From positions 310,001 through 374,000 of the forward strand of contig NZ_CP027732.1 of NCBI RefSeq assembly GCF_003852235.1: a stretch of 64,000 bases of DNA, written 5' to 3'. Of this stretch, positions 47,647 through 63,011 are shown piece after piece. The first letter of the stretch is position 1. The number at the start of each line of letters is the position of its first letter. The position numbers were made by a program, and so were the translations under genes. The DNA comes from Pseudomonas sp. R4-35-07. Its GTDB lineage: Bacteria > Pseudomonadota > Gammaproteobacteria > Pseudomonadales > Pseudomonadaceae. The notes under the pieces are model-generated. The model did no database searches, had not been told where the DNA came from, and was given only the letters and a program-made list of their open reading frames with translations.

Positions 47647-47910
47647 TTAAGCTGTTTTGAAGCCTGGCTTGCCATTGGCGGCCCGCCATTCTTTAACCTT
47701 ATTAGTTATCGCCTCGGGCGTGCTTTCTGCGTCCGTCGCTGCATAATAAATAAGGTCTGTGCTTTCAGGATGTTCGGTGATTCTTTCGAAATGCTCCAAA
47801 AGTATATCTAGCTGATCATCGGTCTTGGCGATATTCTCTTTAAATATCTCCTTCATGAACTCCAAAAACTCAGCTTCTGTATATTCTGAAATACTGCTTT
47901 TAAGTTCCAT
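47647..47910 (-). CDS. DNase bacteriocin immunity protein
   Basis: 87-aa acidic protein very like the colicin E2/E7/E8/E9 immunity family: SISEYTEAEFLEFMKEI at the start, ERITEHPESTDLIYYA in the middle (the nuclease-binding helix III region) and VKEWRAANGKPGFK at the end. It protects the producer by binding the HNH nuclease. It overlaps the bacteriocin stop by one base. Confidence 0.93.
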   Translation of the reverse strand: MELKSSISEYTEAEFLEFMKEIFKENIAKTDDQLDILLEHFERITEHPESTDLIYYAATDAESTPEAITNKVKEWRAANGKPGFKTA

Positions 47911-50027
47911 TATTTTACTTCCTTATGGATATCTATGTGACGCTTAGGTGTCAAAACACGCATGTTTTCGATATTGTAAATATCTCCGCCTTTCGCAACT
48001 TCGTCAATATGATGAAGTTCAAAAGATGATCGTTTACCCACAGCATCAGCTTTTCTGGACTTTGCAGCTTTACCGGTGATCATGCGGTCTCTGTTTGTCA
48101 AAATAAATTGTTTCGCAAGTTCTGGGTCACTAGCTACGGCTTTCCAGAAGGTTTCTCGAAACTCTCTGAAGTTCTTAAATTCCTTCCCTCTAAGTTGATC
48201 GGCAATCTGCGACGGGATGGGTGCACCCTCACCTTGTGATGCAGCGCCTAACCAAGTCCCCGACACAGGTTGGCCAACACCTGTCGCCACGCCTGGATCC
48301 TCTCGCCGGTCCCTGAACATCACATAGATTGGAGGCAGACCCGAGTCTGCCGGGAACACGGTGACGAAGTCATCAAAACCAGCGTCTGCAACCCCTGGGA
48401 AAGTGTCAATCCTTCCTTCAACCGGCGTTACACTAGCTCCAGTGTAGACCGGTGGAGTAGGTTGTTCGGCAGGTAGGGTGGTCGAGCTGTTACCAGGGTC
48501 GACAATCGGTGTCCAAGTCAAAGTCCTTGGTGGGGCGTCTCCTGTCGTCACACTGTACAGGTTCTGTTCGGCGTTATAAGTAGCAGCCACCACCCTGACT
48601 TTCGAAGGAATCGTCACACCATCAGTCTTTACCACAATGACTTCTGACTGCCCATCTGCAGCTGTTTTCGAGCTAAGCCGAACAGGCAAATCAACGGTAC
48701 CACCGGCGGCGGCAATGGCTGGCAAATCTTGGCTTAGCTCAGGGGTAAGATCCGACACAGGGGTACTAAACGTATAACGTTCAGGCAACTCCCCATTAGC
48801 CAGTTTGGGCGAATAGATTAAAGCAGAAACCCCAACCAGAAGACCTGAGGCGGTGCCAGCTGCCAAACTGGTCAAGGCGGCAATTGCAGAGCGGATAGCT
48901 GTTTGCAAGGTCACTGCCGCCGCTTCAATGACAGCTATGGTTCCCGCCGAGGTTATAACAAACGGTGCAGCCGCTGACGCTGGGCCTGGAGCACGAAACG
49001 TATTGGCAACGCGAATAGCCTCTGCAGCTAAACGGGCTTGCTCAGCTGCTTCGGTGGCGATCCTGGCTGCCTCCGCTGCTGCCGCTTCATCCGCGATCCG
49101 CTTAGCTTCAGCCTCTGCCGCGACTCTCGCCGCTTCAGCAGCGGCAGCCTCATCAGCCACGCGTTTTGCTTCAACCTCAGCGGCGATTCTGGCGGCTTCA
49201 GCGGCTGCCGCTTCATCGGCAATGCGCTTGGCCTCGGCCTCAGCAGCGACCCTGGCTGCCTCAACTGCAGCCGCTTCATCGGCAACACGCTTGGCTTCGA
49301 CCTCAGCGGCGATTCTGGCGGCTTCAGCGGCTGCCGCTTCATCGGCAATGCGCTTGGCTTCGGCCTCCGCCGCGAGACGTACGTCTTCTGCTGCCTGGGC
49401 CGTAGCAACATTCTGGGTCAGTAATGCGGACTTTTCTGTAAGAATTCGTATTTTTTCCTCAAGTATTTTTGCCGAATACGCCGCCGTAGCTGACGCTTCC
49501 CAGTTTTTATAAGTATCAAGGGGACTGTTTGGGTTTTTAGGTGATTGAAAGATATTTACAAAATAAACCGCACTTTTTTTCATTTCCACCGCGAGCACAT
49601 TTCTACCAAAAAAAGCGGTAGCAGCTGCGTTAGCGTTAGCCAATTCTGCGGTGTTCTGCGCAATCAGGCCGTCTACAACGGATTTTTCCTTGTTGGCCTT
49701 CTCAAGTTCGGAGAGAGGGTTAGGTCCTACACCTGCCGCGATCTCTGCTTCAACATCAGCCGGCAATTGGGGCAAGTAAGCCGTATAGGATTGCTCCATA
49801 CTTCGTTGAGCGCTAGCGACGGTTACAACCACAGACATTGTGTACCGATCGCTCGTAATTCGTTCCTGATTGAAAAATGCATCAACTTCAGGGCCAGAAG
49901 CGAACTTGCCGTCCCATGGCAGTGGTTTAGCAATGACCCCACCCCCTGGCAGAGGCCCTGGTGGATTGGGCAATGGTGGATCAGGGGTCACGATAGTGGA
50001 AGGCAGAGTAATATCTGGTGGTGACAT
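47910..50027 (-). CDS. S-type pyocin-like HNH DNase bacteriocin
   Basis: 705 aa from the ATG at 50027, preceded by AAGGAGAAAC. N-terminal Pro/Gly-rich segment (receptor or translocation part), then a long Ala/Glu coiled coil (about 220-345) made of 21-residue repeats, a pyocin-S translocation domain (about 470-610; PIVDPG to FVTVFPADSGLPPIYVMF) and a C-terminal nuclease domain with RSSFELHHIDEVAKGG and VLTPKRHIDIHKE (HNH/H-N-H-H motif as in colicins E7/E9). Probably kills related Pseudomonas by DNA cleavage after TonB-type receptor uptake. Upstream sits a perfect LexA box. Confidence 0.92.
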   Translation of the reverse strand: MSPPDITLPSTIVTPDPPLPNPPGPLPGGGVIAKPLPWDGKFASGPEVDAFFNQERITSDRYTMSVVVTVASAQRSMEQSYTAYLPQLPADVEAEIAAGVGPNPLSELEKANKEKSVVDGLIAQNTAELANANAAATAFFGRNVLAVEMKKSAVYFVNIFQSPKNPNSPLDTYKNWEASATAAYSAKILEEKIRILTEKSALLTQNVATAQAAEDVRLAAEAEAKRIADEAAAAEAARIAAEVEAKRVADEAAAVEAARVAAEAEAKRIADEAAAAEAARIAAEVEAKRVADEAAAAEAARVAAEAEAKRIADEAAAAEAARIATEAAEQARLAAEAIRVANTFRAPGPASAAAPFVITSAGTIAVIEAAAVTLQTAIRSAIAALTSLAAGTASGLLVGVSALIYSPKLANGELPERYTFSTPVSDLTPELSQDLPAIAAAGGTVDLPVRLSSKTAADGQSEVIVVKTDGVTIPSKVRVVAATYNAEQNLYSVTTGDAPPRTLTWTPIVDPGNSSTTLPAEQPTPPVYTGASVTPVEGRIDTFPGVADAGFDDFVTVFPADSGLPPIYVMFRDRREDPGVATGVGQPVSGTWLGAASQGEGAPIPSQIADQLRGKEFKNFREFRETFWKAVASDPELAKQFILTNRDRMITGKAAKSRKADAVGKRSSFELHHIDEVAKGGDIYNIENMRVLTPKRHIDIHKEVK
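49040..49375 (-). repeat. 63-base coiled-coil coding repeats
   Basis: Within the bacteriocin gene, a 21-aa unit (AARxAAExEAKRxADEAAAAE) recurs about five to six times. Two variants alternate, EVEAKRVADEA and EAEAKRIADEA, giving a 126-base higher-order period. Twenty-one residues equal three heptads. Confidence 0.85.
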
Positions 50028-50348
50028 GTGTTTCTCCTTGATGTTTAGATCCCTTACGAATGCCTTCCAGTGGCTATCGATAGCATGGGCAAGCAAACAC
50101 TTAATGTGCAAACAGAATGTTCGCGAATCCACTGTACATAAACACAGCTATCGCACCAAGCCAAAATATGCACAAATGCATAAATATTGGACGAACGGTA
50201 TTGATTTCGATTGGCCATCACTCGAAACCAAACGAGCCCCACGATCAAGCCTTTACTGAAGTGATGCTATACAACGCGGCTTGATCAGCTATGGACGATC
50301 AGCTGCAAATAAGCACCACCACCAAAACCCCATTGCAAAGGATTGCAA
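50028..50348. other. Intergenic region between bacteriocin and methylase
   Basis: A 321-base divergent region. It contains the LexA box and, just above it, an imperfect dyad around ATGCACAAATGCAT (50169-50182) that might bind another regulator. No gene visible. Confidence 0.6.
50132..50147. promoter_or_regulatory. LexA/SOS box of the bacteriocin gene
   Basis: CTGTACATAAACACAG matches the gamma-proteobacterial LexA operator CTGT-N8-ACAG exactly. It lies about 105 bases before the bacteriocin ATG. In the minus direction a weak promoter, TTGGCT-N18-TATGTA, can be drawn so that its -10 end overlaps the box. This predicts direct induction by DNA damage. Confidence 0.85.
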
Positions 50349-51523: not shown

Positions 51524-51648
51524 CTTCGCCCCTTTCGTGTCCCTTACCGCATGTCGGGAAATGGCGGTGGATAAATGGCCGAAAGCATAGCGGGTTGAAT
51601 GCTGCCCGCCGCCTATTGTACGTGTGATTGTACGTATTGCAGAAACAA

Positions 51649-51682
51649 CAAGGGCCTGCATCGCTGCAAGCCCTTGTTTTGT
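51649..51682 (+). terminator. Terminator at the island edge
   Basis: CAAGGGCCTGCATC / GCTGCAAGCCCTTG stem followed by TTTT, immediately before the tRNA-like attachment sequence. Confidence 0.7.
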
Positions 51683-51705
51683 ATGGTGCGGCACCAGGAG
51701 TCGAA
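51679..51705. repeat. Distal attachment site (tRNA-Thr 3'-end copy)
   Basis: TTGTATGGTGCGGCACCAGG and the bases after it match 62931-62958, the 3' end of tRNA-Thr plus seven flanking bases, over 27 of 28 positions; one C is missing. The rest of the tRNA is absent. This is the expected far attachment site of an element integrated at the tRNA 3' end. Confidence 0.88.
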
Positions 51706-52070
51706 AAATGAGCTAACTAGCTGAATTGTAAGTTGCTTAAAGTAATGAAAATAAATTCTATCCCTAAAGCTATCCTAATAAAGGCTTGCAGTTTATATTC
51801 CGCAAACTGACGCACTCGAAGTGCGCTGATTGATTCAGCGAGAATAAAAGCTGACGTTGAGATTTCTGTGTGCAAGGAGATTTATTGGCGGCAGAAAAGT
51901 GGTAGAGCCCTAGTGGCGGTTGAAAAGCTAATCTAGCTCTGCTGCCTTTGACTGACTGGGCGCGGACGATTTTGGGGAGGCTAAATTATATAGCGCATGC
52001 ACACCTAATAACTTGTTTGCCCTCGAGCTTCACTAAAAATGCAGATCGGTATTAATCAAAAGCTCTATCG
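51706..52070. other. AT-rich non-coding stretch at the island's distal end
   Basis: 365 bases without a gene I can support, with stops in every frame and low G+C relative to the core. It includes CTGACGCACTCGAAGTGCGCTG, containing the short palindrome GCACTCGAAGTGC. Nothing else notable. Confidence 0.5.
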
Positions 52071-52568
52071 CTAAATTTGGACTGATAACTGCCATGTAGA
52101 TGATTTTGCGCGCGCGATTATTTCAGGTACAGATGTTAGCAGAAGCTCCTCCGTAACTTTGTTATAAAGAGCTACTCTATGACGTGCTCCCAATTGATCT
52201 GCTGCAGATATTTCACTTTCGGTAAGTGCGAAGAAGAAACCAGAAAACCCAGGCTTGACTCTCGGCTGACTTGCACTTTTTATCTCAATAAATTGCATAA
52301 GTGGAAGGGATTGAGCTACTGCCACGGAATCTAGGAAGTCGAGTTCACACCCATGTGGAAGGGCTATAGCATCGAAGCTTGACGATTTAATTGAAATGCC
52401 AGAGTTTTTCAGGGAGGTCAGAAGCACTTGCAGAGCCAGCCCCTTTGGGCGCGGTATCCAATGGGACATCGCTGATAGTACAGAAATTTCACCTAAAGCA
52501 CCATTTTGATTGGCTAGCCGTGCTAGATGGGCATGTTTGTTCTTAATAACTTCTAGTAGTGACATCAT
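52071..52568 (-). CDS. Putative PD-(D/E)xK / DUF3883-like nuclease
   Basis: 165 aa. The arrangement SFDAIALPHGCELDF ... LMQFIEIKSASQ ... FALTESEISAADQLGARHRV gives an Asp, then E-x-K (EIK), then a trailing helix and strand, the pattern of restriction-endonuclease-like DUF3883 proteins. The small size suggests a stand-alone nuclease subunit. Last gene of the minus-strand cluster, 94 bases after the preceding gene, so it may share its transcript. Assigned by eye only. Confidence 0.55.
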   Translation of the reverse strand: MMSLLEVIKNKHAHLARLANQNGALGEISVLSAMSHWIPRPKGLALQVLLTSLKNSGISIKSSSFDAIALPHGCELDFLDSVAVAQSLPLMQFIEIKSASQPRVKPGFSGFFFALTESEISAADQLGARHRVALYNKVTEELLLTSVPEIIARAKSSTWQLSVQI

Positions 52569-52662
52569 ATTTTAATAATTTCTCATATGAAGCTAGCGCG
52601 ATATTATTTATATGATGCGCTCGCTTGTACTATTGGGCGCCGAACGGCGCCCGTATTGCAGC

Positions 52663-53388
52663 TTAAGCAAGATGTGGCATAAGCGCAGCAGTTTTCGCTT
52701 TTTCATCTTTTTGGGGAGTTTCCCACCAGTTTGCTAGACGTTTCAAATAAGGTTGCCATAGCGTTTTTTGAGACTCTTTAATGAGCCTTAAGTACGGTGC
52801 TTGTTTACGCATGAAGCCCCAGCACTCCCCTGAAAAATTTGAAAGTACGAAATCGATTGCAAGAACCGCGTCCATAGGAGGGAATGCCAAGCGTGGCGCA
52901 GGCAGCAGTAGACTATTGCCAAGCATACCAGCATAAGGCAACATGGCGTTACCGCCGTGTTGGAAGTGATATAGCGGGTGAGCTTCAAGCGTAGGGTTGC
53001 CTTCTTGGTTATGACGGTCGAAGTGCCACGCGCATAGAAGAGATCCACAAGATGATTTTATTATAATATCTAGTACTAAAGCAGTTAGCTGGTCTGCTTC
53101 ATCATTGTTAAGGTCTCCAGCAAGTGAAAGGCTCACTTCAATCGTGAGGGGGCCAGGGCAATTTACAGGTTGTGTGCTCTGGGGCACATTCACGCGAAGT
53201 TGAAGTCCAGAGATCTTGTAGTTCCACGTGGACCCTTTAGTGGTTCGCGTTATAGTATTAGCGGAAGATTTTAGTACGTCCGGATTTACAATTGTCCCGT
53301 GCATCCCTGATTTTAGTACTTCAGCTAAGGCAATCAGGTCAGACGACATTTTTTTTCGAACGAATTCTGGTGACTGTTTCTTAGCCAT
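52663..53388 (-). CDS. Unknown 241-aa cluster protein
   Basis: No family recognised. Distinct conserved-looking segments are LLCAWHFDRHNQEG and AHPLYHFQHGGNAMLP (several His and Asp residues in the centre), then a hydrophobic PMDAVLAIDFVLSNF. No signal peptide or membrane segment. The His-rich centre could be a metal site or active site (inference). It starts four bases after the receiver-domain gene, so it is part of the same operon. Confidence 0.6.
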   Translation of the reverse strand: MAKKQSPEFVRKKMSSDLIALAEVLKSGMHGTIVNPDVLKSSANTITRTTKGSTWNYKISGLQLRVNVPQSTQPVNCPGPLTIEVSLSLAGDLNNDEADQLTALVLDIIIKSSCGSLLCAWHFDRHNQEGNPTLEAHPLYHFQHGGNAMLPYAGMLGNSLLLPAPRLAFPPMDAVLAIDFVLSNFSGECWGFMRKQAPYLRLIKESQKTLWQPYLKRLANWWETPQKDEKAKTAALMPHLA

Positions 53389-53392
53389 GAAA

Positions 53393-54538
53393 TTAAGCTC
53401 CTTCTTCCTTTATCCATGCAAGCCTATCCCTCTCTAAAGGATCTAGGCGCCAGAGGTCCTTATTAATACGCTCAAGTGCAGCATGAGTGGATACATAGAA
53501 AGTATCCTGCCATGTGCGCGAGGACCGTCTAACAACTCGCAGGCCGTCTATCGGATCCAGCGGCAAAAAAGTCCCTACGCACAGAGTGGTAAAATATGTG
53601 CTGTAAGTATGGACTATCGGTTGGCTGGCGATAAGCGCTGTGGAAAATATCTCGTTTAGCTTATTTACACGTTCTTGGCTATCTAATAGTCCTAGCTCGG
53701 AAATTTCGGGCTGTAGGTTAGCCCACCAGTCTTCAATTCGGAACCACCAAAAGCGTGGCCATGCCTCGCGGAAAGGACCCGTATACTGAGCATGTTCAAG
53801 ATTTTTTATTATTACCTCCCACGACTCCTTCGATTCAGATATGTTGACACCTAGACGTGCTGCGACCATCGCCTCTGTCACAAGAAGGCCTTCGACTCGA
53901 ATAAGTTCGTTAAGGAGGAAATGAGCTATTTCATGAGTTGTAGAATCATTAAATATTTGAGTGTATTCATCTAAGAACTGAGAATAAAGAGGCAGGTTTG
54001 CTTCTTCTCCTAAACCAAGAGTGCTTACGAGGTTGCGCTCATTAAGACTTCGTAACTGATGATAGCCGTGCGCTAAAGATACAAGTTTTTCCGCGACTAC
54101 AATTGGTTCGTCAGTTACTTCACGATCTTTACCGAAAATGTCGTCAAAGAGATCATGAGACGATTCATCTCCAAAATATGACTGACGAAATTTGGTATTT
54201 ACTGACCAGAGTACGATTGGGAATGGCGCGATAACCCCTTCTGCCATTCTTGTGCGTAACTCTTGCGCCAGTGTGGGGCCACGATAAGATACACGATTCC
54301 CATCCGGATCGGCGTCCACATCTAACCTAAGGTCAAGAAGTAGCCCTGACGGGCCTGTTTGTTGGGCGAAGAAGTCCTGAATCGCCGGTAGTTGGCCCTC
54401 TAGGTTTTTTGGTGTCCATCGTTCAAAGGATATTAATCCGTCATTCGCTAGCTTGGTTAGCAATGGATCAATAGTTGAATCCTGTTGATCGTCAATGCAC
54501 AGATAATTAATACTGGTCGGCATCGATTTGGTCCTCAC
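53393..54538 (-). CDS. Receiver-like domain protein (381 aa)
   Basis: The N-terminal 140 residues look like a two-component receiver: acidic pair CIDDQ (D16, D17), phospho-acceptor candidate D69 in GLLLDLRLD, Ser112 in PIVLWSVN and a possible Lys137 in IFGKDRE. The remaining 240 residues are an unrecognised, Trp-rich domain (AWPRFWWFRIEDWWANL) without a DNA-binding motif. It overlaps the kinase-like gene by 32 bases from the first ATG, or 17 from the second at 54523, so the two are strongly coupled. Likely the signalling partner of that protein, with the C-terminal domain as effector (inference). Confidence 0.75.
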   Translation of the reverse strand: MRTKSMPTSINYLCIDDQQDSTIDPLLTKLANDGLISFERWTPKNLEGQLPAIQDFFAQQTGPSGLLLDLRLDVDADPDGNRVSYRGPTLAQELRTRMAEGVIAPFPIVLWSVNTKFRQSYFGDESSHDLFDDIFGKDREVTDEPIVVAEKLVSLAHGYHQLRSLNERNLVSTLGLGEEANLPLYSQFLDEYTQIFNDSTTHEIAHFLLNELIRVEGLLVTEAMVAARLGVNISESKESWEVIIKNLEHAQYTGPFREAWPRFWWFRIEDWWANLQPEISELGLLDSQERVNKLNEIFSTALIASQPIVHTYSTYFTTLCVGTFLPLDPIDGLRVVRRSSRTWQDTFYVSTHAALERINKDLWRLDPLERDRLAWIKEEGA

Positions 54539-56924
54539 GCGCTTTAGGAACAGTCAGGCGAATGCATGTGGAGTAACCTACTGCGGGCTCAATGGCTTCG
54601 ATTGACCCACCAGCGGCCTCAATAATGTCTCTCACGATCTTTAGACCAAGACCTGTCCCGACTAGTTGCTCTTCGTGTGTTTCGGAGGTAGAGGGAGGAG
54701 CACTTGTTGTGAAAAAAGCATCAAATATTTTTTCGCGATTTTCTACAGGAATTCCGTCGCCATTGTCAGAAAAATCTATCTGAAGTTCCCCGTCAACGAC
54801 AGAGCAAGCAATTAATATGGCACCTTTCACTTGTGCTCGGTGAATTGCTTTTAGGGAGTTTGTAAAAAGATTAAGTAAGGTGGACGCCCATTCAGATTTG
54901 TGCATCGGTCTGGTGAATAAGTCATAGCCCTGGAACGACGTTTCCACTTTGACATTTTGCCTGGTGAATGTAGGGCGTACTACTTTAATGAACTCACTTA
55001 TTACATCCCTAAGTTCATGCGCCTCAAGTTTTCGATGCGCGTTCTGCATTACTGCGTCATCGAAGTAGTGCATGTAACTTCTGAGAAGCATTACATGCTC
55101 TGTGAGCTCTTCCGCAAGATCGGAATTCTCCCGGCTTTTATTCAGGTCTGTAACAATTGTCCCTAGGGCAGCGAGGGCATGTCTTACTTCATGCGTAAAT
55201 TCGCCTATTGTCAATCCGAGGCTGGCCAGTACTCTCAGCATTCCTACTTCCTGCAGCGCCGACTCCGATGCTTGTCCGATTAGTTCTATTTCGTCGGCAA
55301 GGGTACTCAGTTCTTGCGCGGCATGAGCTAATGAACCGGTATCCTGTGGTTGATTGGAATCGAGTAAAGTTTTCGGCGCATCTGTTTCGTCTGGGTTATC
55401 CGTTATAGCCGGAGGAGCATCATTGGTGGGTACAGCCGCGCCCGCAATAGCCCTGAGCCTCCCGGCTACCTCTGCCGCTTGATCTTTTACGCTTTCGGGA
55501 TTGGTTTTTGTCTCACGCAAAGTCGGTGATTTATCTCCTGCGTATAATTTTCTGCCCCTTACTCTAGCAATTTCCATCACCGCTGCGATGATTGTTCGAT
55601 AGGCAAAGTCTTGCAGTTGATGGAACGCCTCATTTTCTATAAGGCCTTCTCTACTAGCTGTTTCTTGAAAATGATCCCCGTCTACGTCAGTTATTTCAAC
55701 GAAGCCCAGGAAGTTTGTATTGTGATGTGGAGGAAGAACTTCCCGCAATGCACTGGAACGTTGTAGGCTTAGCCAGTCGTCAAAACTTTCGCCATAGGGG
55801 AGCACGCGGAAACCATTGCGATATATTCGAATTCCTCCAGTGCGATTCAAGATATCCCTGACCATGCCTCTGGTGCCTTGTGGTAATTCGTCAGCGATAA
55901 AGTAATGTGCGGATAATTGTATTCCATCAAGAAGATTGTAGCTGGTCACCCTGTCTTTGGATTTTGTGCGTAATTTTGCATCGAACTTTAGCGGTACGTT
56001 ATCCAGTTTTACGGGGTGCATACTGGAGGACAGGCTTATAAAAGCTTGACCTCCATTTTCAACACGCGCTGTGACGTAGCCTGACGCGGTCGACAAAATA
56101 TTTTGCTCATGGCTAGCAATTTTTTCTCGATCACCGTCAACTGTTTTATAAAAATTTACTACAAAACCGGGATCAGGAGCATAGGGGACTTGGAAAAGGT
56201 CAAGCTTAGGAAGGATTTCAGGAGGGGATAGTTTAAAGGGTTGTAATAGATCTGATACGAACCTAAAAGCGCGTCTAATTTGGGCTTCCGACCAAGAGTC
56301 ACGCAGTTCTTCGATCCGCATAGTAGTTCCGCTCATTTCATGAGCAGGGAGCACTATTATTTGACTTGCGATCATGTGCAAGTCAATGCCGGTTAAGAAT
56401 TTATCCCAGTCGATAGTTAATTTTAAACAAAACTGTGCCCCATCTTGCTGCGTCACAATACTTAGTTTTCGTCCAAGTCGCTGTGCGGCAAATCGCCCTA
56501 TGCCTTTTCGCCCCGCACGTTGCCGGCCGTACTTTGGGGAAAGCGGTTCAGTTACTTTCTCCGCTGTAGATATTCGCATGAAGCCATTTAATAATTGTTC
56601 TCGTGACATTCCTGTGCCGTAGTCAATTATCTCTAGAACTCCACCGGCAGTATCAGTTTTATAAAAATCTACTTCCACACAAGGCGTATCAGCATCGTAC
56701 GCATTTTTTATAAGTTCCGAGATTGCGGTTTCTTGTTTTGAAACTAGCTCTAGACCAAGTCTAGAGATATGGCTCGCGTCTACTGAGAATCGAATGGTGT
56801 CTTTATCTTCTTCAGATAACTTATGTGCGAGTTTTAGAATGTTTCCATAATCCAGATTGGGCTCAGTTAGAGCTGCGGTCAGCGCGGTTTTAGCATCAAA
56901 GTCCTTGTCTTGTTCAGTCATCAC
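54507..56924 (-). CDS. Dual GHKL ATPase, Hsp90/MORC-like plus histidine-kinase-like
   Basis: 805 aa with two Bergerat-fold ATPase domains. The first (about 40-300) is MORC/MutL/Hsp90-like: [35 protein letters not shown]. The C-terminal part (about 560-795) is histidine-kinase-like: [17 protein letters not shown] with an H-box-like histidine, [12 protein letters not shown] (N-box), FSDNGDGIP and GTGLGLKIV. Between them lies a Pro/Asp-rich linker. No membrane segment, so it is a cytoplasmic sensor, perhaps of foreign DNA or its modification state. It overlaps the methylase by 11 bases and the receiver gene by 32 bases. Confidence 0.8.
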
Positions 56925-58614
56925 TAACTTCCTTATTTCTAATCCTGCGTTTTCTAGCGATCATCAAGCTTTGTGTTAAATGAGGGATTTCTTTGCGAAA
57001 TACTGACGAACCTGAAAATATAAACTGATCAGCGGCAGTACGGGCATGCTCTTCATTTCCTTCGCGCATGTGTCTATCAATGATTGAGAATGCGTGCTCT
57101 ATCTCTACTTCCGTTTTGTGCGGTAAATATAGAGGAAGCAGTTTGGCATCGCAGGGCTCCAATTTGAGAGCTCCTGAGCCACGAGGCCTTCCAAGCTTTT
57201 CAGCTTCAAGTTGCGTGAACGTAGTCTGCAATGAGATAGCTATTAACCTAAAGGAAATATTGATGTTGGGTTTAAAATTTACTCTATAGAATCCATTCGT
57301 TGTGTTTGCATGTACGCTATTTAGGATAACTCGTGGGCCGTTATGAGTCATGAATACGAAAAAAGCGTCGGGGATTCTACCGTCTAAAAATCTGAACCAG
57401 CAGCCACGTTTTGCAAAAGTAGCATTGGCCTTGATATTGGAGTTTCCATAACCTGAAAGATATTTCAAAACTGGCTCAGATTTCGTGTTTGATGGCGCAT
57501 CCAGAGCAAAGCATGGGACGTCCATTTCTTTGTGGCGCTCTCGGTCTGAAGTTGATACTTCCAGCCCAGTAACAAATCTGCTTTTTGGTAAAATATAGGT
57601 CAGGTGAGAATTGCCAATGCCGTCAGCTCTCCAATGGGCGTGTGGCCTAATGAAGAATTTTGCATCGCCTGTAACCACTCCAATGCCGACATCTGAAAGT
57701 TCGCCTAATTCTTTTACTAGGGGGTCAAGCTTTAGTCTGGATATTGAGGATTCCACTATGGCGCTAACAATGCCAAAGTTGGACTTGCTGTTGCTTGGAT
57801 AATCTTCGTTGCTGCTCACTGTCCATTTTTCTATTTCGATATAGAGTTCTGATAAATTGTCGACATAGCTAGATGTTATATGGGCGTCTTGTGAATTGTA
57901 GCCAAAACCATCACCTAAAACAATAAGTGCCCTTTCTTCGGTGCCTTCCAGTAAGAATATTCGTTCGGTAAGAGTGAAGAAAGCCAGCTTTTTAAAGCTT
58001 TTAAAAAATAGTTCGCGAAGTCCTGCGGCATACTGGGCTGTCATAAAGCTAACTGGTAAAACCCACGCTATCCGCCCACCATTTTTTAGAAAATGCAGGG
58101 CGTGATAGCTAAAGTACGTCCAAAGGCTTGCGCGTCGATTGAGTTTTAAATTGTACTTTTGTTCCCATATATGAATGGCAGCGCGCTGCGCTTCGTCAAG
58201 CTTGCTATAGCGAACATAAGGAGGGTTTCCAATTACGGCATCTGCTTTTTCGGCTGATAATTCATTTGAATCAATTAATAGAAAGTTTTTAAGTTTAAAG
58301 TTCTCTGCGTGCAATTTCAGCTTTCTGTCGTTTAGCATTTCAAATGCAGCGGGATCTATGTCGCAGCCGTATATTGTTTCGGTTGAGTCGGATCCGAGTT
58401 CTTGTACTCTTCTCACGGATGCTTCTAAAAAATTACACCCACCAAAGCTAGGCTCTAGCAAAACGTCGGAAGGAGTTCTTATCGCCCAATCACATAATAT
58501 CTTCGTCACGGACGGTGGAGTGTAGAAAGCGCCTAGTTCTCGCTTTCGTGCTAGCGAGACCGGTCTTTCTTCAGCGGATGGTATCGAGCGCTGAGCATGC
58601 ACAGCCAATGTCAC
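56914..58614 (-). CDS. N6-adenine DNA methyltransferase (Eco57I-like)
   Basis: 566 aa. Motif X region RKRELGAFYTPPSVTKILCD, AdoMet motif I LLEPSFGGCNFLEASV, catalytic motif IV VIGNPPYVRYSKL (NPPY) and motif VI-like GGRIAWVLPVSFM; the C-terminal 250 residues form a specificity-like domain (KLGRPRGSGALKLEPCD). No nuclease domain is fused in. Its start lies two bases after the AbrB-like gene's stop, and its end overlaps the ATPase gene. AT-rich compared with the core genome. Confidence 0.85.
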   Translation of the reverse strand: MTLAVHAQRSIPSAEERPVSLARKRELGAFYTPPSVTKILCDWAIRTPSDVLLEPSFGGCNFLEASVRRVQELGSDSTETIYGCDIDPAAFEMLNDRKLKLHAENFKLKNFLLIDSNELSAEKADAVIGNPPYVRYSKLDEAQRAAIHIWEQKYNLKLNRRASLWTYFSYHALHFLKNGGRIAWVLPVSFMTAQYAAGLRELFFKSFKKLAFFTLTERIFLLEGTEERALIVLGDGFGYNSQDAHITSSYVDNLSELYIEIEKWTVSSNEDYPSNSKSNFGIVSAIVESSISRLKLDPLVKELGELSDVGIGVVTGDAKFFIRPHAHWRADGIGNSHLTYILPKSRFVTGLEVSTSDRERHKEMDVPCFALDAPSNTKSEPVLKYLSGYGNSNIKANATFAKRGCWFRFLDGRIPDAFFVFMTHNGPRVILNSVHANTTNGFYRVNFKPNINISFRLIAISLQTTFTQLEAEKLGRPRGSGALKLEPCDAKLLPLYLPHKTEVEIEHAFSIIDRHMREGNEEHARTAADQFIFSGSSVFRKEIPHLTQSLMIARKRRIRNKEVSDD

Positions 58615-58616
58615 GA

Positions 58617-58832
58617 CTACTTGCCCCCGTTCTGAGGCGATAATTTGTGCTTACTCGGGGATATTTTTCGCAGGCGAATCTCACCGGTCTCTACCATCAA
58701 CGCGACGTCTAGGCTATCGCCTTCCTCCAAGCCGAGCGTCCGCAAGAGGTTCGCATCCAAGGAAATCCTTCGCATTTTTTGTATCATGGTAGGACCAAAT
58801 GATACTTCAGATAGTACGTTTTTAGATGTCAT
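58617..58832 (-). CDS. AbrB/SpoVT-like DNA-binding protein
   Basis: 71 aa with the swapped-hairpin AbrB pattern: MRRISLDANLLRTLGLEEGD followed by a short strand MVETGEIRLRKI. Such proteins act as antitoxins or autoregulators. First gene of the cluster, two bases before the methylase, so it probably controls the operon. Confidence 0.7.
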   Translation of the reverse strand: MTSKNVLSEVSFGPTMIQKMRRISLDANLLRTLGLEEGDSLDVALMVETGEIRLRKISPSKHKLSPQNGGK

Positions 58833-58928
58833 GAGGTTTCGCGCAATACTGGAAACAGGTTTGAATAGTAGCAGATTCAGTGACTAGGCCAAATGTTGAG
58901 CGACGTAATCCTCGACTCACTGCGGTAA

Positions 58929-59225
58929 TCAACGGTTTTTGGCGTCAGCCTGCCTTTGGAATGTCCATGACTTTCGTAAGCGTGATGAAATCAGGCCGAT
59001 GGTCAGCAGGTAGTAATAGCACGTTGATCCCGAGCGCGACTGGATGTGGCTATCAAGAAACCACACAAGGTGTTTCCGCTGCCATGACCATGGATTGTCT
59101 AGTTGCCATCGTTCATGAATAGCTGCTTGGATCGTCTTTGCTTGTTGAATGTGGCGTTTGCGCGTGGCATTTGCGCCCTTCAGAATCCCGGCTAAGAACA
59201 GCTCCATATCGAATGGCTTGCTCAT
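58929..59225 (-). CDS. Small recombinase-associated protein, 98 aa
   Basis: A basic, helical, Trp-rich protein (WQLDNPWSWQRKHLVWFLDSH) without a recognised family. It overlaps the stop of the upstream tyrosine recombinase by four bases (ATGA), so the two are translated together; it may be an accessory factor of integration (inference). Confidence 0.6.
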   Translation of the reverse strand: MSKPFDMELFLAGILKGANATRKRHIQQAKTIQAAIHERWQLDNPWSWQRKHLVWFLDSHIQSRSGSTCYYYLLTIGLISSRLRKSWTFQRQADAKNR

Positions 59226-60202
59226 GCTCTCCCCCCAATGTAAGCCGATGCCACGTCCATACGGCCGTGTCCAAGTTCATAGCTGATTTGCTCTCGGGCC
59301 TCCTGATCGAGGCGTCGGTTGAGTTGGTAGCAACGGCCAACGCTTATGGGCGCGGGATGCTGGGTGATTTGTTCATAGCGTTCGCATGCGTAGGCCGCGC
59401 GCAAGTCGTGGAAGCCTTTGAGTTCGTGCGTATGGAGGATGTCTCGGGAGGGACGGACGGTGCCCTGTATGAAGTCCAGGTAGCTTTCGTTCGGGGCTAA
59501 CAGATTGCGGCTACCACCAGGCGAGAAATGTTGGGCGAATGCTAGTGCGTCACGGATGTAATCGTTCACCATGATCCAGCAAGGTGCAGACGCGCCTGAG
59601 CGTCCGCCCTTGGTACCCTCCTGGATATTAACTCTGCCGAATTTCTCGGCTTCACATTTTAGGCGCGATAGGTCGGCCAAAATGGCCTCGCGTGAACGCA
59701 TACCGATGGCTCGTGCCAGGTACACAATGGCAGCAGCGCGCGCCAGTTGATGTTCGCAGAGTGCATTGATGATCTTCATCACTTGGTCACGATCCTGACC
59801 TTGCGGAGTCGTAGTTCGAACAGTGGTGCGCTGCATTCCCAGCGCCTTGCTCGGGCTTAGCACTTTCACATACTGGTCACCGCGGAGCGCCGCCATGGTT
59901 CGGTTGACGCTGGACAATCGGTTTTGCGCAGTAGCGATGGCAAGCTCACCATGTTCAACTTGCTGGCGTAGGTATCCTGCGTAGTCCAGCAAGGTCTGCC
60001 GGTCGATCTTCCTCGCATCGTTGAATCCCGGCCCATCTTCGGACCGACACCACCGCACAAACGCTTGCCAGCGATCGGTGTGTGCTTTGACAGTCCCATA
60101 ATGCCCACCGCCGAACATGTCTTTCAGCGCCTGCGGCCCGGCGTAGCTCAGTTGCCGGCCATAGCCAAAATTGCGGCCACCTCGTTTGCCCACTAGTGCC
60201 AT
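59222..60202 (-). CDS. Tyrosine recombinase (integrase-domain protein)
   Basis: 326 aa resembling the integrase-domain proteins common on Pseudomonas integrative elements. N-terminal core-binding part (VKAHTDRWQAFVRWCRSE) and catalytic part with ARAIGMRSREAILADLSRL (first Arg), GFHDLRAAYACERYEQ (H-x-x-R) and, near the end, ISYELGHGRMDVASAYIGG (His and Tyr). All catalytic positions seem present. Not next to the tRNA; it may serve a different step or be a leftover from a nested element. Confidence 0.75.
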   Translation of the reverse strand: MALVGKRGGRNFGYGRQLSYAGPQALKDMFGGGHYGTVKAHTDRWQAFVRWCRSEDGPGFNDARKIDRQTLLDYAGYLRQQVEHGELAIATAQNRLSSVNRTMAALRGDQYVKVLSPSKALGMQRTTVRTTTPQGQDRDQVMKIINALCEHQLARAAAIVYLARAIGMRSREAILADLSRLKCEAEKFGRVNIQEGTKGGRSGASAPCWIMVNDYIRDALAFAQHFSPGGSRNLLAPNESYLDFIQGTVRPSRDILHTHELKGFHDLRAAYACERYEQITQHPAPISVGRCYQLNRRLDQEAREQISYELGHGRMDVASAYIGGRA

Positions 60203-60444: not shown

Positions 60445-60873
60445 TCAGGTGAAGGCAGTGAAGCGATGACCGGGGCATGCCTGACTGTCAGTCAGGTGCA
60501 GTCCATTTCCTTGGGCTGCGGCACCATCATCTGCATCGCTGTTGCTGGTGACATTGGTGTTTGTCACGCCGATTGTCACGAGGGGGAATGCCGCAATGCC
60601 TTGTACGAGTTGGGCTGCAGCAGCGGTAGGAGCGCCCGTCTCTTTCCGGAAGAAAGAGACGGGCGCAGGTTGGCGCAATGAAATGGCCAAGCGGATAGGT
60701 TGCTGCAGGGCAGCTATGAAAGGGGATGAGTTGCCGCAGCGGGCACACTGGTAAAAGTAGGCATCCATCACATTGCTGTGACCGTGCGAGCCGCCGGACG
60801 CTAATCGCACTTTGGGAGAACCACCACGGTGTGGCGTAGCCTTAAAGGTTCTGGCTACCTGGGTTGCTGTCAA
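60445..60873 (-). CDS. Doubtful hypothetical protein, 142 aa
   Basis: An open frame with YFYQCARCGNSS, which could be one half of a zinc ribbon, but only one CxxC-type pair is seen. The frame runs through a perfect 15-base-stem hairpin (60631-60665), and the C-terminal half has low-complexity Asn/Thr/Asp sequence. It may be a real island gene or chance. Confidence 0.3.
   Translation of the reverse strand: MTATQVARTFKATPHRGGSPKVRLASGGSHGHSNVMDAYFYQCARCGNSSPFIAALQQPIRLAISLRQPAPVSFFRKETGAPTAAAAQLVQGIAAFPLVTIGVTNTNVTSNSDADDGAAAQGNGLHLTDSQACPGHRFTAFT
60631..60665. repeat. Long perfect hairpin
   Basis: GCGCCCGTCTCTTTC - CGGAA - GAAAGAGACGGGCGC, a perfect 15-base stem with a five-base loop and no following T run. 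Possibly a binding site or replication/transfer structure. Confidence 0.7.
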
Positions 60874-61028
60874 CGACAGCGCTTTGCCCGATCTTTTCTA
60901 CTCCTGTGGGTAATTCGGGTTAAGGCTCGAATTTTCGGGAGCTCTGCGGCTGTGGATGAAATTATCCATCGGTGGAAATCTGTGGTTTTCCACAGACAGT
61001 TGCATGGGCTCTAGATTTTTTAAGTGAG

Positions 61029-61430: not shown

Positions 61431-62764
61431 TCAATTCCTCCTCTCTGCGCCAGTGCCAGGCTTCGCTTTTATCCAAGTGACGTTCGCTCCTGTCTGGTTC
61501 GCGAATTCGTGTGGAGTGACATGCTCCTGTCGGTTGGCCTCCAGGTACCGGCTCCACCAGTTCATGATCAGCCTGCGCTCCTCGATGAACTCGGCCTTGT
61601 GGATGTAGGCGGCACGGACGTTGTTGCGTTCCTTGTGGCTCATCTGCCTTTCAATGGAGGTCTCCGACCACAATCCTGACTCGATCAGTGCGCTGCAGGC
61701 CATCGAACGAAACCCATGCCCGCAGATATCGGTTTTGGTGTCGTATCCCATCGTCCGTAGCGCGTTGTTCACCGTATTTTCGGACATGGGCTTCCAGGGT
61801 TTGGCATCCCCTGCGAAGACCAATGCGAATTTGCCTGTGAGTGCATGGATTTTTTCGAGTAGCGCCACTGCTTGCGGCGATAAGGGTACTAAATGGATAT
61901 CCCCTGCCATCTTCGTACCCCTTGTGGAAAAGGGTACTCCCTCCAACGCGGGTCGAGTGTCGGGTATCTCCCAGGTGCCACGCTTGAGGTCGAACTCGCT
62001 CCAGCGGGCGAAACGCAGTTCGCTGGATCTTACAAACACATGCAGCGACAGCATCACCGTCAGACGGGTAAGTGCCCGGCCTTTATAGGTGTCGATCCGC
62101 TCCTGCAGTTCCGGCAGTCGCGATAAGGGTAGAGCAGGGCGATGTACCACTCGCGGGGCTTTGATCAAGCCTTCGAGGTCGTAAGCAGGGTTTGCGGTGA
62201 TAAGCCGGAGGCGTTTTGCCTCGCGCATGATGCTCTGCAGGTAGTTTTGTACCCTTAAAGCAACGTCGATCGTTCCGCGCTTCTTGATCGCTTCCAAGGG
62301 CTGCATAAGGTCATGGGTGTCGAGATCAACAATGGCGCGTGCGCCGATCAGCGGGAATACGTGGGTTTTGAGGCGGCTCATCACTGTCTTGGAATGGCCT
62401 GGTGCCCACTTGGCCGACATTTCCGTATGCCAGTCGAGCGCAACGCTTTCAAAGGTTCTGCCTTTGATCACAGCTTCCGCCTTGGCTTGGTGCTTGGTCT
62501 CTATAGGATCAACGCCATCCGCCAGCATTCGCTTAACTTCCAAGCGCTTGCGACGCGCGTCGGCGAGGCCAATGACGGGGTAGTTGCCGAACGAGGTCAG
62601 TCCTTCGCGTCCGTCAGGTTTGACGTAACGGAGCCGCCAGAATTTGCGGCCATTGGTTGGACTAGGAGGTAGAGGCCATCGCCGTCGAAAAGCTTGTAAG
62701 CGCCGTCGGTGGGCTTGGCTGAGCGGCAAGCCGAATCGGAGAGTGGAGCAGTGGTGCGCGACAT
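61431..62764 (-). pseudogene. P4-type integrase with N-terminal frameshift
   Basis: Catalytic parts are intact: VRSSELRFARWSEF (first Arg), CGHGFRSMACSAL (HxxR), MSHKERN and AAYIHKAEF (Tyr). But the normal N-terminus, starting at the ATG at 62764 (MSRTTAPLSDSACRS to DGDGLYLLVQP), is in another frame from the rest (NGRKFWRLRYVKPDGRE). One A is missing near 62653, where CCA-ATG-GCC should read CCA-AAT-GGC. The downstream frame has no good start before 62729. The gene lies 170 bases from tRNA-Thr, its likely target. It is either broken, or read by slippage or from a weak internal start. Confidence 0.82.
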
Positions 62765-62893: not shown

Positions 62894-62935
62894 GGGGGTT
62901 CCAGAGATTTTGAAAGCCTTCTATGGAGCCTTGTA

Positions 62936-63011
<76 letters not shown>

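Follow-up and report, generated by a model that had tools for sequence, protein, structure and literature searches.

What could a DNA methyltransferase, a protein with two ATPase domains, a receiver protein and a protein of no recognizable family do together when their genes stand in one tight row? The question is raised by a locus of Pseudomonas sp. R4-35-07, which lies in a stretch of 64,000 nucleotides (NZ_CP027732.1, positions 310,001 to 374,000) that we call the window and to which our coordinates refer. A preliminary description made from the letters alone had listed six minus-strand genes, and we find all six at the positions it gave; their spacing from the AbrB-like gene to N5 is +2, -11, -32, +4 and +94 bases, the first four values being as claimed. 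The region is single-copy in the one-contig genome of 5.84 Mb. Our data indicate that the conserved unit consists of only four of these genes, namely MT (a predicted N6-adenine DNA methyltransferase), HK (a two-ATPase kinase-like protein), RR (a receiver protein) and U4 (a candidate effector). We read this unit as a mobile, restriction-modification-like (R-M-like) cassette probably serving phage defence, in which MT would supply an exchangeable self mark and HK-RR-U4 would be a restriction module under phosphorelay control. We give this reading a probability of about 0.55.

The gene order carries the first part of the argument. Related loci were gathered from genomes, a plasmid and viral contigs by searches with RR, U4 and HK as queries, and 29 loci including the window remained after merging those on the same contig or with matching gene content (L010 with L018, and L057 with L108). 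The order MT-HK-RR-U4 is found in 18 of them (the window, L008, L009, L010/L018, L011, L012, L013, L014, L015, L016, L017, L022, L024, L025, L026, L027, L057/L108 and L062), covering same-genus genomes, Solimonas, Gallionella, Janthinobacterium, Duganella, a Moraxellaceae metagenome-assembled genome, Motilimonas, a genome from the family of Hymenobacter lapidarius, and IMG/VR contigs. RR also has a match on NZ_NFZQ01000002.1 of Pseudomonas sp. SID14000. In 21 loci, measured on first-start open reading frames (ORFs), neighbouring core genes are -137 to +37 bases apart, and the core genes keep their order, with short or negative gaps, in Pseudomonadota as well as Bacteroidota. That the genes are unrelated neighbours in a defence island, a view to which other island cargo such as N5 lends something, is hardly credible and was rejected on this conserved order and spacing. 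Of the system that had been proposed, the methylase plus kinase/receiver combination is supported, but six genes acting as one system are not, with N5 present in 3 loci and the AbrB-like gene in 5. The cassette is rare. With the own or centre genome counted in, RR was matched in 4 out of 199 genomes of the genus and, at phylum level, in 2 out of 398; among 149 genomes from the order of genome G593 there were 2 carriers, among 150 from the order of G590 there was 1, and among 90 from the family of G596 there were 2. U4 was matched in 1 of the 369 genomes searched in the class and in 2 of the 345 searched in the phylum of G593. U4 is single-copy in all eight carriers searched.

The DNA-marking module is exchanged while HK, RR and U4 remain together. 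An adjoining DNA-modification module was found in 25/25 judged loci (of 29), and beyond the 18 loci with MT upstream there are 7 in which HK-RR-U4 has another such module. Three of these (L006, L023 and L107) have the order HK-RR-U4-MT, with a methyltransferase that differs from the window type; the best PADLOC model for that of L023 is PDLC03335 (E 2.5e-108), compared with PDLC03267 for the window MT. The other four, all from Bacteroidota (L019, L020, L021 and L053), have SspB, SspC and SspD directly before HK and no MT in their available DNA. The sspBCD genes were recognized in L020 and L053 and, by blastp, in L019, and those of L021 score E 6.3e-93 for SspB, E 0 for SspC and E 2.7e-83 for SspD. 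Neither HK, RR and U4 of L021 nor the six window proteins match any Ssp model in PADLOC-DB. All partners in the 25 judged loci are of N6 type or Ssp, and no C5 methylase was found among them. An ATPase-receiver pair lacking a methylase and lying away from defence regions, a case that the preliminary description had set against its own proposal, was not seen among these loci; where MT is missing, sspBCD replaces it. The pairing in every judged locus points to DNA discrimination. It argues against U4 being an abortive-infection effector on RNA, nucleotides or NAD instead of DNA, an explanation that we find quite unlikely, even if U4 has no assigned fold or chemistry and a relay would suit a conditional toxin.

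Several neighbours of these loci are worth recording. A PbeA gene (E 0) follows U4 straight away in L021, where it overlaps the end of U4 so that SspB-C-D-HK-RR-U4-PbeA appears as a seven-gene operon (L021:1455-14102), preceded by an MbpB/MobB-like gene scoring below its cut-off. A PDC-S02/PD-(D/E)xK candidate defence gene stands immediately before sspB in L053 (18634-19602). On the Hymenobacter plasmid of L006 (2989-8644), genes for a Piwi-annotated protein and an MmeI-like methyltransferase adjoin HK-RR-U4-MT in a defence-island-like setting.

The exchange suggests that the module might function alongside self-labels of more than one kind. The published systems are compared here through the available portions of the cited papers. 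In PMC8092258, sspE and sspFGH are both reported absent from 2,211 of 2,678 sspBCD loci, for which the paper proposes either further restriction partners or true orphan sspBCD. HK-RR-U4 is a candidate for the missing partners, made concrete by its exchange between N6 methylation and sspBCD. One might go further and regard HK-RR-U4 as a modification-agnostic restriction effector, with a MORC-like clamp on unmarked DNA, a His-Asp relay and U4 as a new nuclease class, serving both N6-methyl and phosphorothioate marks; we consider this extension possible but tentative.

The proteins themselves show the parts that a relay would need. HK has an N-terminal MORC/MutL-like GHKL ATPase (HATPase_c_3 at 65-173), a His-Glu phosphoacceptor helix (H578 E579) and a C-terminal histidine-kinase ATPase (HATPase_c at 682-795), as the preliminary description had held in calling two ATPase domains. 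The residues E70, N74, D101, G103, G105, G141 and G143 of the first ATPase, H578 and E579, and N685, N689, D720, G722, G724, G756 and G758 of the second are identical in 24/24 HKs. After the N-terminal GHKL domain, where a paraMORC protein would have its S5 domain, there is a conserved block (364-384) to which no tool assigned a domain. Against PADLOC-DB the window HK gives REase_II (N-terminus only) and a weak PDC-M43B match (E 0.0026), and the HK of L021 additionally matches MzaB (E 1e-4). HK of L009 lies in two overlapping ORFs (L009:6757-9040), while MT, RR and U4 have one ORF each; this split could be real, a sequence error or decay. RR has no Pfam match at E <= 1, and its receiver fold, also called earlier, is confirmed by a structure model and fold comparison. 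Its acidic pair, D63, S106 and K131 are kept in 26 or 27 of 27 RRs. HK and RR hence resemble a two-component pair whose relay residues are intact, and phosphotransfer between them is predicted.

Do these residues have to imply a phosphorelay to an effector? HK-RR could instead be a two-component system in which RR is a transcription factor setting the expression of MT and U4, with U4 restricting alone or with no restriction at all. The helical C-terminal domain seen after the receiver domain in the RR model might bind DNA, and a role for pairs of this kind in controlling R-M systems is a speculation made in PMC8011034. However, HK, RR and U4 stay associated when the modification module changes, HK has a second, MORC-like ATPase, and HATPase_c_3 proteins have no canonical DHp domain according to the available text of PMC8011034. 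We regard this explanation as unlikely. It is also rather unlikely that HK, RR and U4 assemble into a complex that works without phosphorylation, with both GHKL domains as a MutL-like clamp, the receiver as a structural switch, and U4 or the complex cutting DNA. A relay-free GHKL-nuclease defence protein does exist, as VcSduA in PMC12137116, and the BbrUII/HgiDII restriction enzyme model NF050001 matches HK residues 45-215 (E 2.7e-21, 75.8 bits, far under its cut-off of 550), but such a complex would not need H578-E579 (24/24) or the RR acidic pair, D63, S106 and K131 to be conserved.

U4 has no match in Pfam, PADLOC, NCBIfam or PHROGs, and no PDB sequence match at E < 0.5. Its residues H122, D124, H137, P138, H141 and P165 are identical in 26/26 sequences (L104, L106 and L107 are outside this set). 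The AF2 model (pLDDT 76.7, pTM 0.77) has five strands flanked by helices. The His/Asp cluster suggests a metal-dependent hydrolase, and with its invariant H-x-D...HPxxH U4 may be a new enzyme family. It had earlier been called His-rich, which holds locally, for 5 of its histidines lie in 122-144, but not overall (7 in 241 residues).

MT matches Eco57I (E 1.1e-16) and N6_Mtase (E 7.6e-13) in Pfam, in agreement with the earlier methylase call, and has the motifs GNPPY and LEPSFGGCNF. NPPY is kept in 20/20 MTs scanned, the MT of L017 being outside that set. PADLOC-DB gives PDLC03267, a single-gene MTase_II model (E 1.2e-67 over residues 28-556), and a partial match to mad2 (E 4.4e-15).

Put together, the restriction-like reading would work as follows. 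MT would N6-methylate host adenines and so mark self DNA, as its family suggests. The N-terminal GHKL clamp of HK would engage DNA, or a DNA-bound state, without the mark, upon which the C-terminal kinase ATPase may drive autophosphorylation of H578. The phosphoryl group would then pass to D63 of RR, and phosphorylated RR would license U4 against the invader, with H-x-D...HPxxH as its likely catalytic, perhaps metal-bound, centre.

Of this reading, the gene order, the conserved ATPase, relay and U4 residues, the receiver fold, the exchange of the marking module and the signs of mobility are observed; the methylation, the phosphotransfer, the thing sensed, the U4 chemistry and phage defence are inferred. 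A number of points weigh against it. The fold comparison of the U4 model gave no convincing match, so no fold is assigned. The C-terminal domain of RR could belong to a transcription factor, a different effector might act in L021 where PbeA is present, and sspBCD could be truly orphan as one option of PMC8092258 has it. Four of the 29 loci (L058, L060, L104 and L106) stop at a contig edge and cannot be judged for a modification module. L011 is too divergent to weigh, since its U4 was identified from position and motif and the RR match there spans 62 residues. The exchange itself may comprise few events. A tree of 23 HKs places all the Ssp-linked proteins in one group (100/100) and the two MT-downstream HKs in a second (100/100), and the MT-upstream HKs make up the remainder (89/88), with L011 as a long branch of unsure placement. 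On these data the marking module must thus have changed at least twice, each change possibly a single event. The HKs of L019 and L020 are identical, hence the Ssp pairing rests on three lineages, and as the Ssp-linked HKs are one clade the exchange with Ssp may have occurred once.

Restriction is usually pictured as an enzyme meeting an unmarked site. If the restriction-like reading is true, recognition and cutting would be linked by a phosphorelay, a control layer new to innate DNA immunity, and the so far unexplained HEF_HK/Response_reg_2 class would gain a testable role. Detocs is a phage defence of two-component-like nature, with an effector of its own.

Is the cassette then a named system? 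The preliminary description knew of none, and in PADLOC-DB, which covers BREX, DISARM, MADS and other multi-gene systems, the cassette matches only single-gene R-M models, and RR, U4, N5 and the AbrB-like gene match nothing. But dual-HATPase kinase-like proteins beside receiver proteins and linked to R-M genes were described in PMC8011034 (2021), which names PF19191 (HEF_HK) and PF19192 (Response_reg_2). As far as that text goes, the pairs share with the cassette the HATPase_c_3, His-Glu helix and HATPase_c layout, the intact phosphoacceptor His and receiver active site, the adjacent receiver and the R-M neighbourhood; they differ in the prominence of C5 methylases, compared with N6 or phosphorothioate marking here, and in the U4 added here. 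Controls of this class came from those genomes, 7 of 249, in which PF19192 has a match. The window HK is homologous to seven control HKs over 683 columns (hhalign probability 100, E 7.5e-42), whereas RR has no detectable profile relation to the control receivers (hhalign probability 0.2) and is 381 aa long against 567-721 aa for the control ORFs. Membership in the two families was rejected, as controls match strongly and window proteins do not. No HK of the window, L012, L057 or L011 has a PF19191 match above cut-off, and L022 reaches E 0.063 (14.2 bits, below the 24.1 cut-off), while controls L036 and L039 give E 1.8e-22 and 1.8e-24. PF19192 has no match in the RRs of the window, L008, L006, L011, L057 and L012, while control L029 gives E 1.6e-33. 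U4 shows no relation to the control receivers either. The cassette is a new variant of this predicted, uncharacterised kinase-receiver class.

Other systems share single parts, again judged from the available text of the papers. MT is a DNA methyltransferase as in Type II R-M, and U4, the candidate for the cognate endonuclease of such a system, has no assignable fold. ParaMORC ATPases are established in R-M operons (Iyer 2008, PMC2292703) and share an N-terminal GHKL ATPase with intact motifs in a methylase operon; the cassette adds the kinase half, the receiver and U4, and that of the window has no helicase gene. SspABCD-SspE and SspABCD-SspFGH (PMC8092258) share sspBCD with the four Bacteroidota loci, while the window has MT instead. 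BbrUII/HgiDII shares the N-terminal GHKL domain. VcSduA, a GHKL-fused Shedu (PMC12137116), shares a GHKL ATPase proposed as effector control but is one protein with a PD-(D/E)xK domain, with no relay or methylase described in the text available. PbeABCD combines an SMC-like ATPase with a PLD-helicase protein and two small proteins (PMC6459918), so HK-RR-U4 is not PbeBCD. The legend of a DefensePredictor figure (PMC13092281) names HATPase and REC for predicted, unvalidated systems whose composition is not visible there, and the figure may already contain a predicted system of this kind. The terms histidine kinase, receiver, GHKL and two-component are absent from the available text of PMC10853773, and no paper with both SspBCD and histidine kinase was found among the matches listed from the open-licence PMC literature.

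The cassette is apparently mobile. It lies whole inside an island of ~11.3 kb bounded by a pair of att repeats (Table 1). The G+C content in 1-kb bins is 43-48% over 52001-59000 and 51-62% elsewhere in 40001-64000, save one 48% bin (47001). In 5 of 29 relative loci (L064-L092), namely L069, L071, L072, L075 and L078, window 51640-51705 lies directly against the tRNA, consistent with empty sites, on a short flank of the att repeat plus ~38 bases. DNA related to the window integrase adjoins the same tRNA-Thr in other genomes of the genus (L067, L068, L070, L073, L080 and L083), so the site is probably an integration hot spot.

Table 1. Features of the cassette and its island in the window
Feature	Position	Strand	Basis
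AbrB/MazE-like small regulator, accessory	58617..58832	minus	weak MazE_antitoxin match, below cut-off
MT, predicted N6-adenine DNA methyltransferase, Eco57I type, core	56914..58614	minus	Pfam and PADLOC
HK, two-ATPase kinase-like protein, 805 aa, core	54507..56924	minus	Pfam and residue conservation
RR, receiver domain and helical C-terminal domain, 381 aa, core	53393..54538	minus	model and fold comparison
U4, candidate effector, 241 residues, core	52663..53388	minus	invariant H-x-D ... H-P-x-x-H
N5, PD-(D/E)xK-like small protein, accessory cargo, not core	52071..52568	minus	FDAI...FIEIK motif
Tyrosine integrase of island, beside tRNA-Thr	61431..62729	minus	Phage_integrase E 1.6e-14, Arm-DNA-bind_3 E 6.7e-13
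tRNA-Thr	62936-63011	minus	tRNA prediction
att repeat at tRNA-Thr 3' end	62931..62958	none	28-column repeat, 96.4% with 51679-51705
Second att repeat, far island end	51679..51705	none	pairs with 62931-62958

The two remaining genes of the row appear to be accessory. The AbrB-like gene stands in front of MT in 5 loci (the window, L012, L014, L017 and L024) and is possibly a control protein for MT expression; its earlier naming as AbrB-like is a weak call, with a MazE_antitoxin match of E 0.0061, below the Pfam cut-off. N5 has no Pfam match at E <= 1. Its nuclease call comes down to FDAI...FIEIK, which we take to be a PD-(D/E)xK nuclease motif and which the relatives keep (FDAI in 2/2 reaching that part and FIEIK in 3/3). 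N5 is present in only 3 loci (the window, L025 at 47%, and L058), with no other homologues among the loci scanned, so it is cargo, and it was rejected as the nuclease of the system. The Piwi-annotated protein of L006 was also rejected as an N5 relative, the match being chance-like with no ExK motif in the aligned stretch. The N5 homologue of L025 (8831-9951) overlaps a phage CI repressor gene on an IMG/VR contig, and N5 may be a prophage accessory gene.

Within the island, a radC RNA motif (60761-60894, 78 bits) lies upstream of a 326-aa Integrase_1 gene (59222-60202). Just outside it lies an S-type pyocin gene (47910-50132), which has a Col-Pyo_DNase domain and is accompanied by a Colicin_Pyocin immunity gene (47647-47910). 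The Pseudomonas small RNA P34 is also present in the window.

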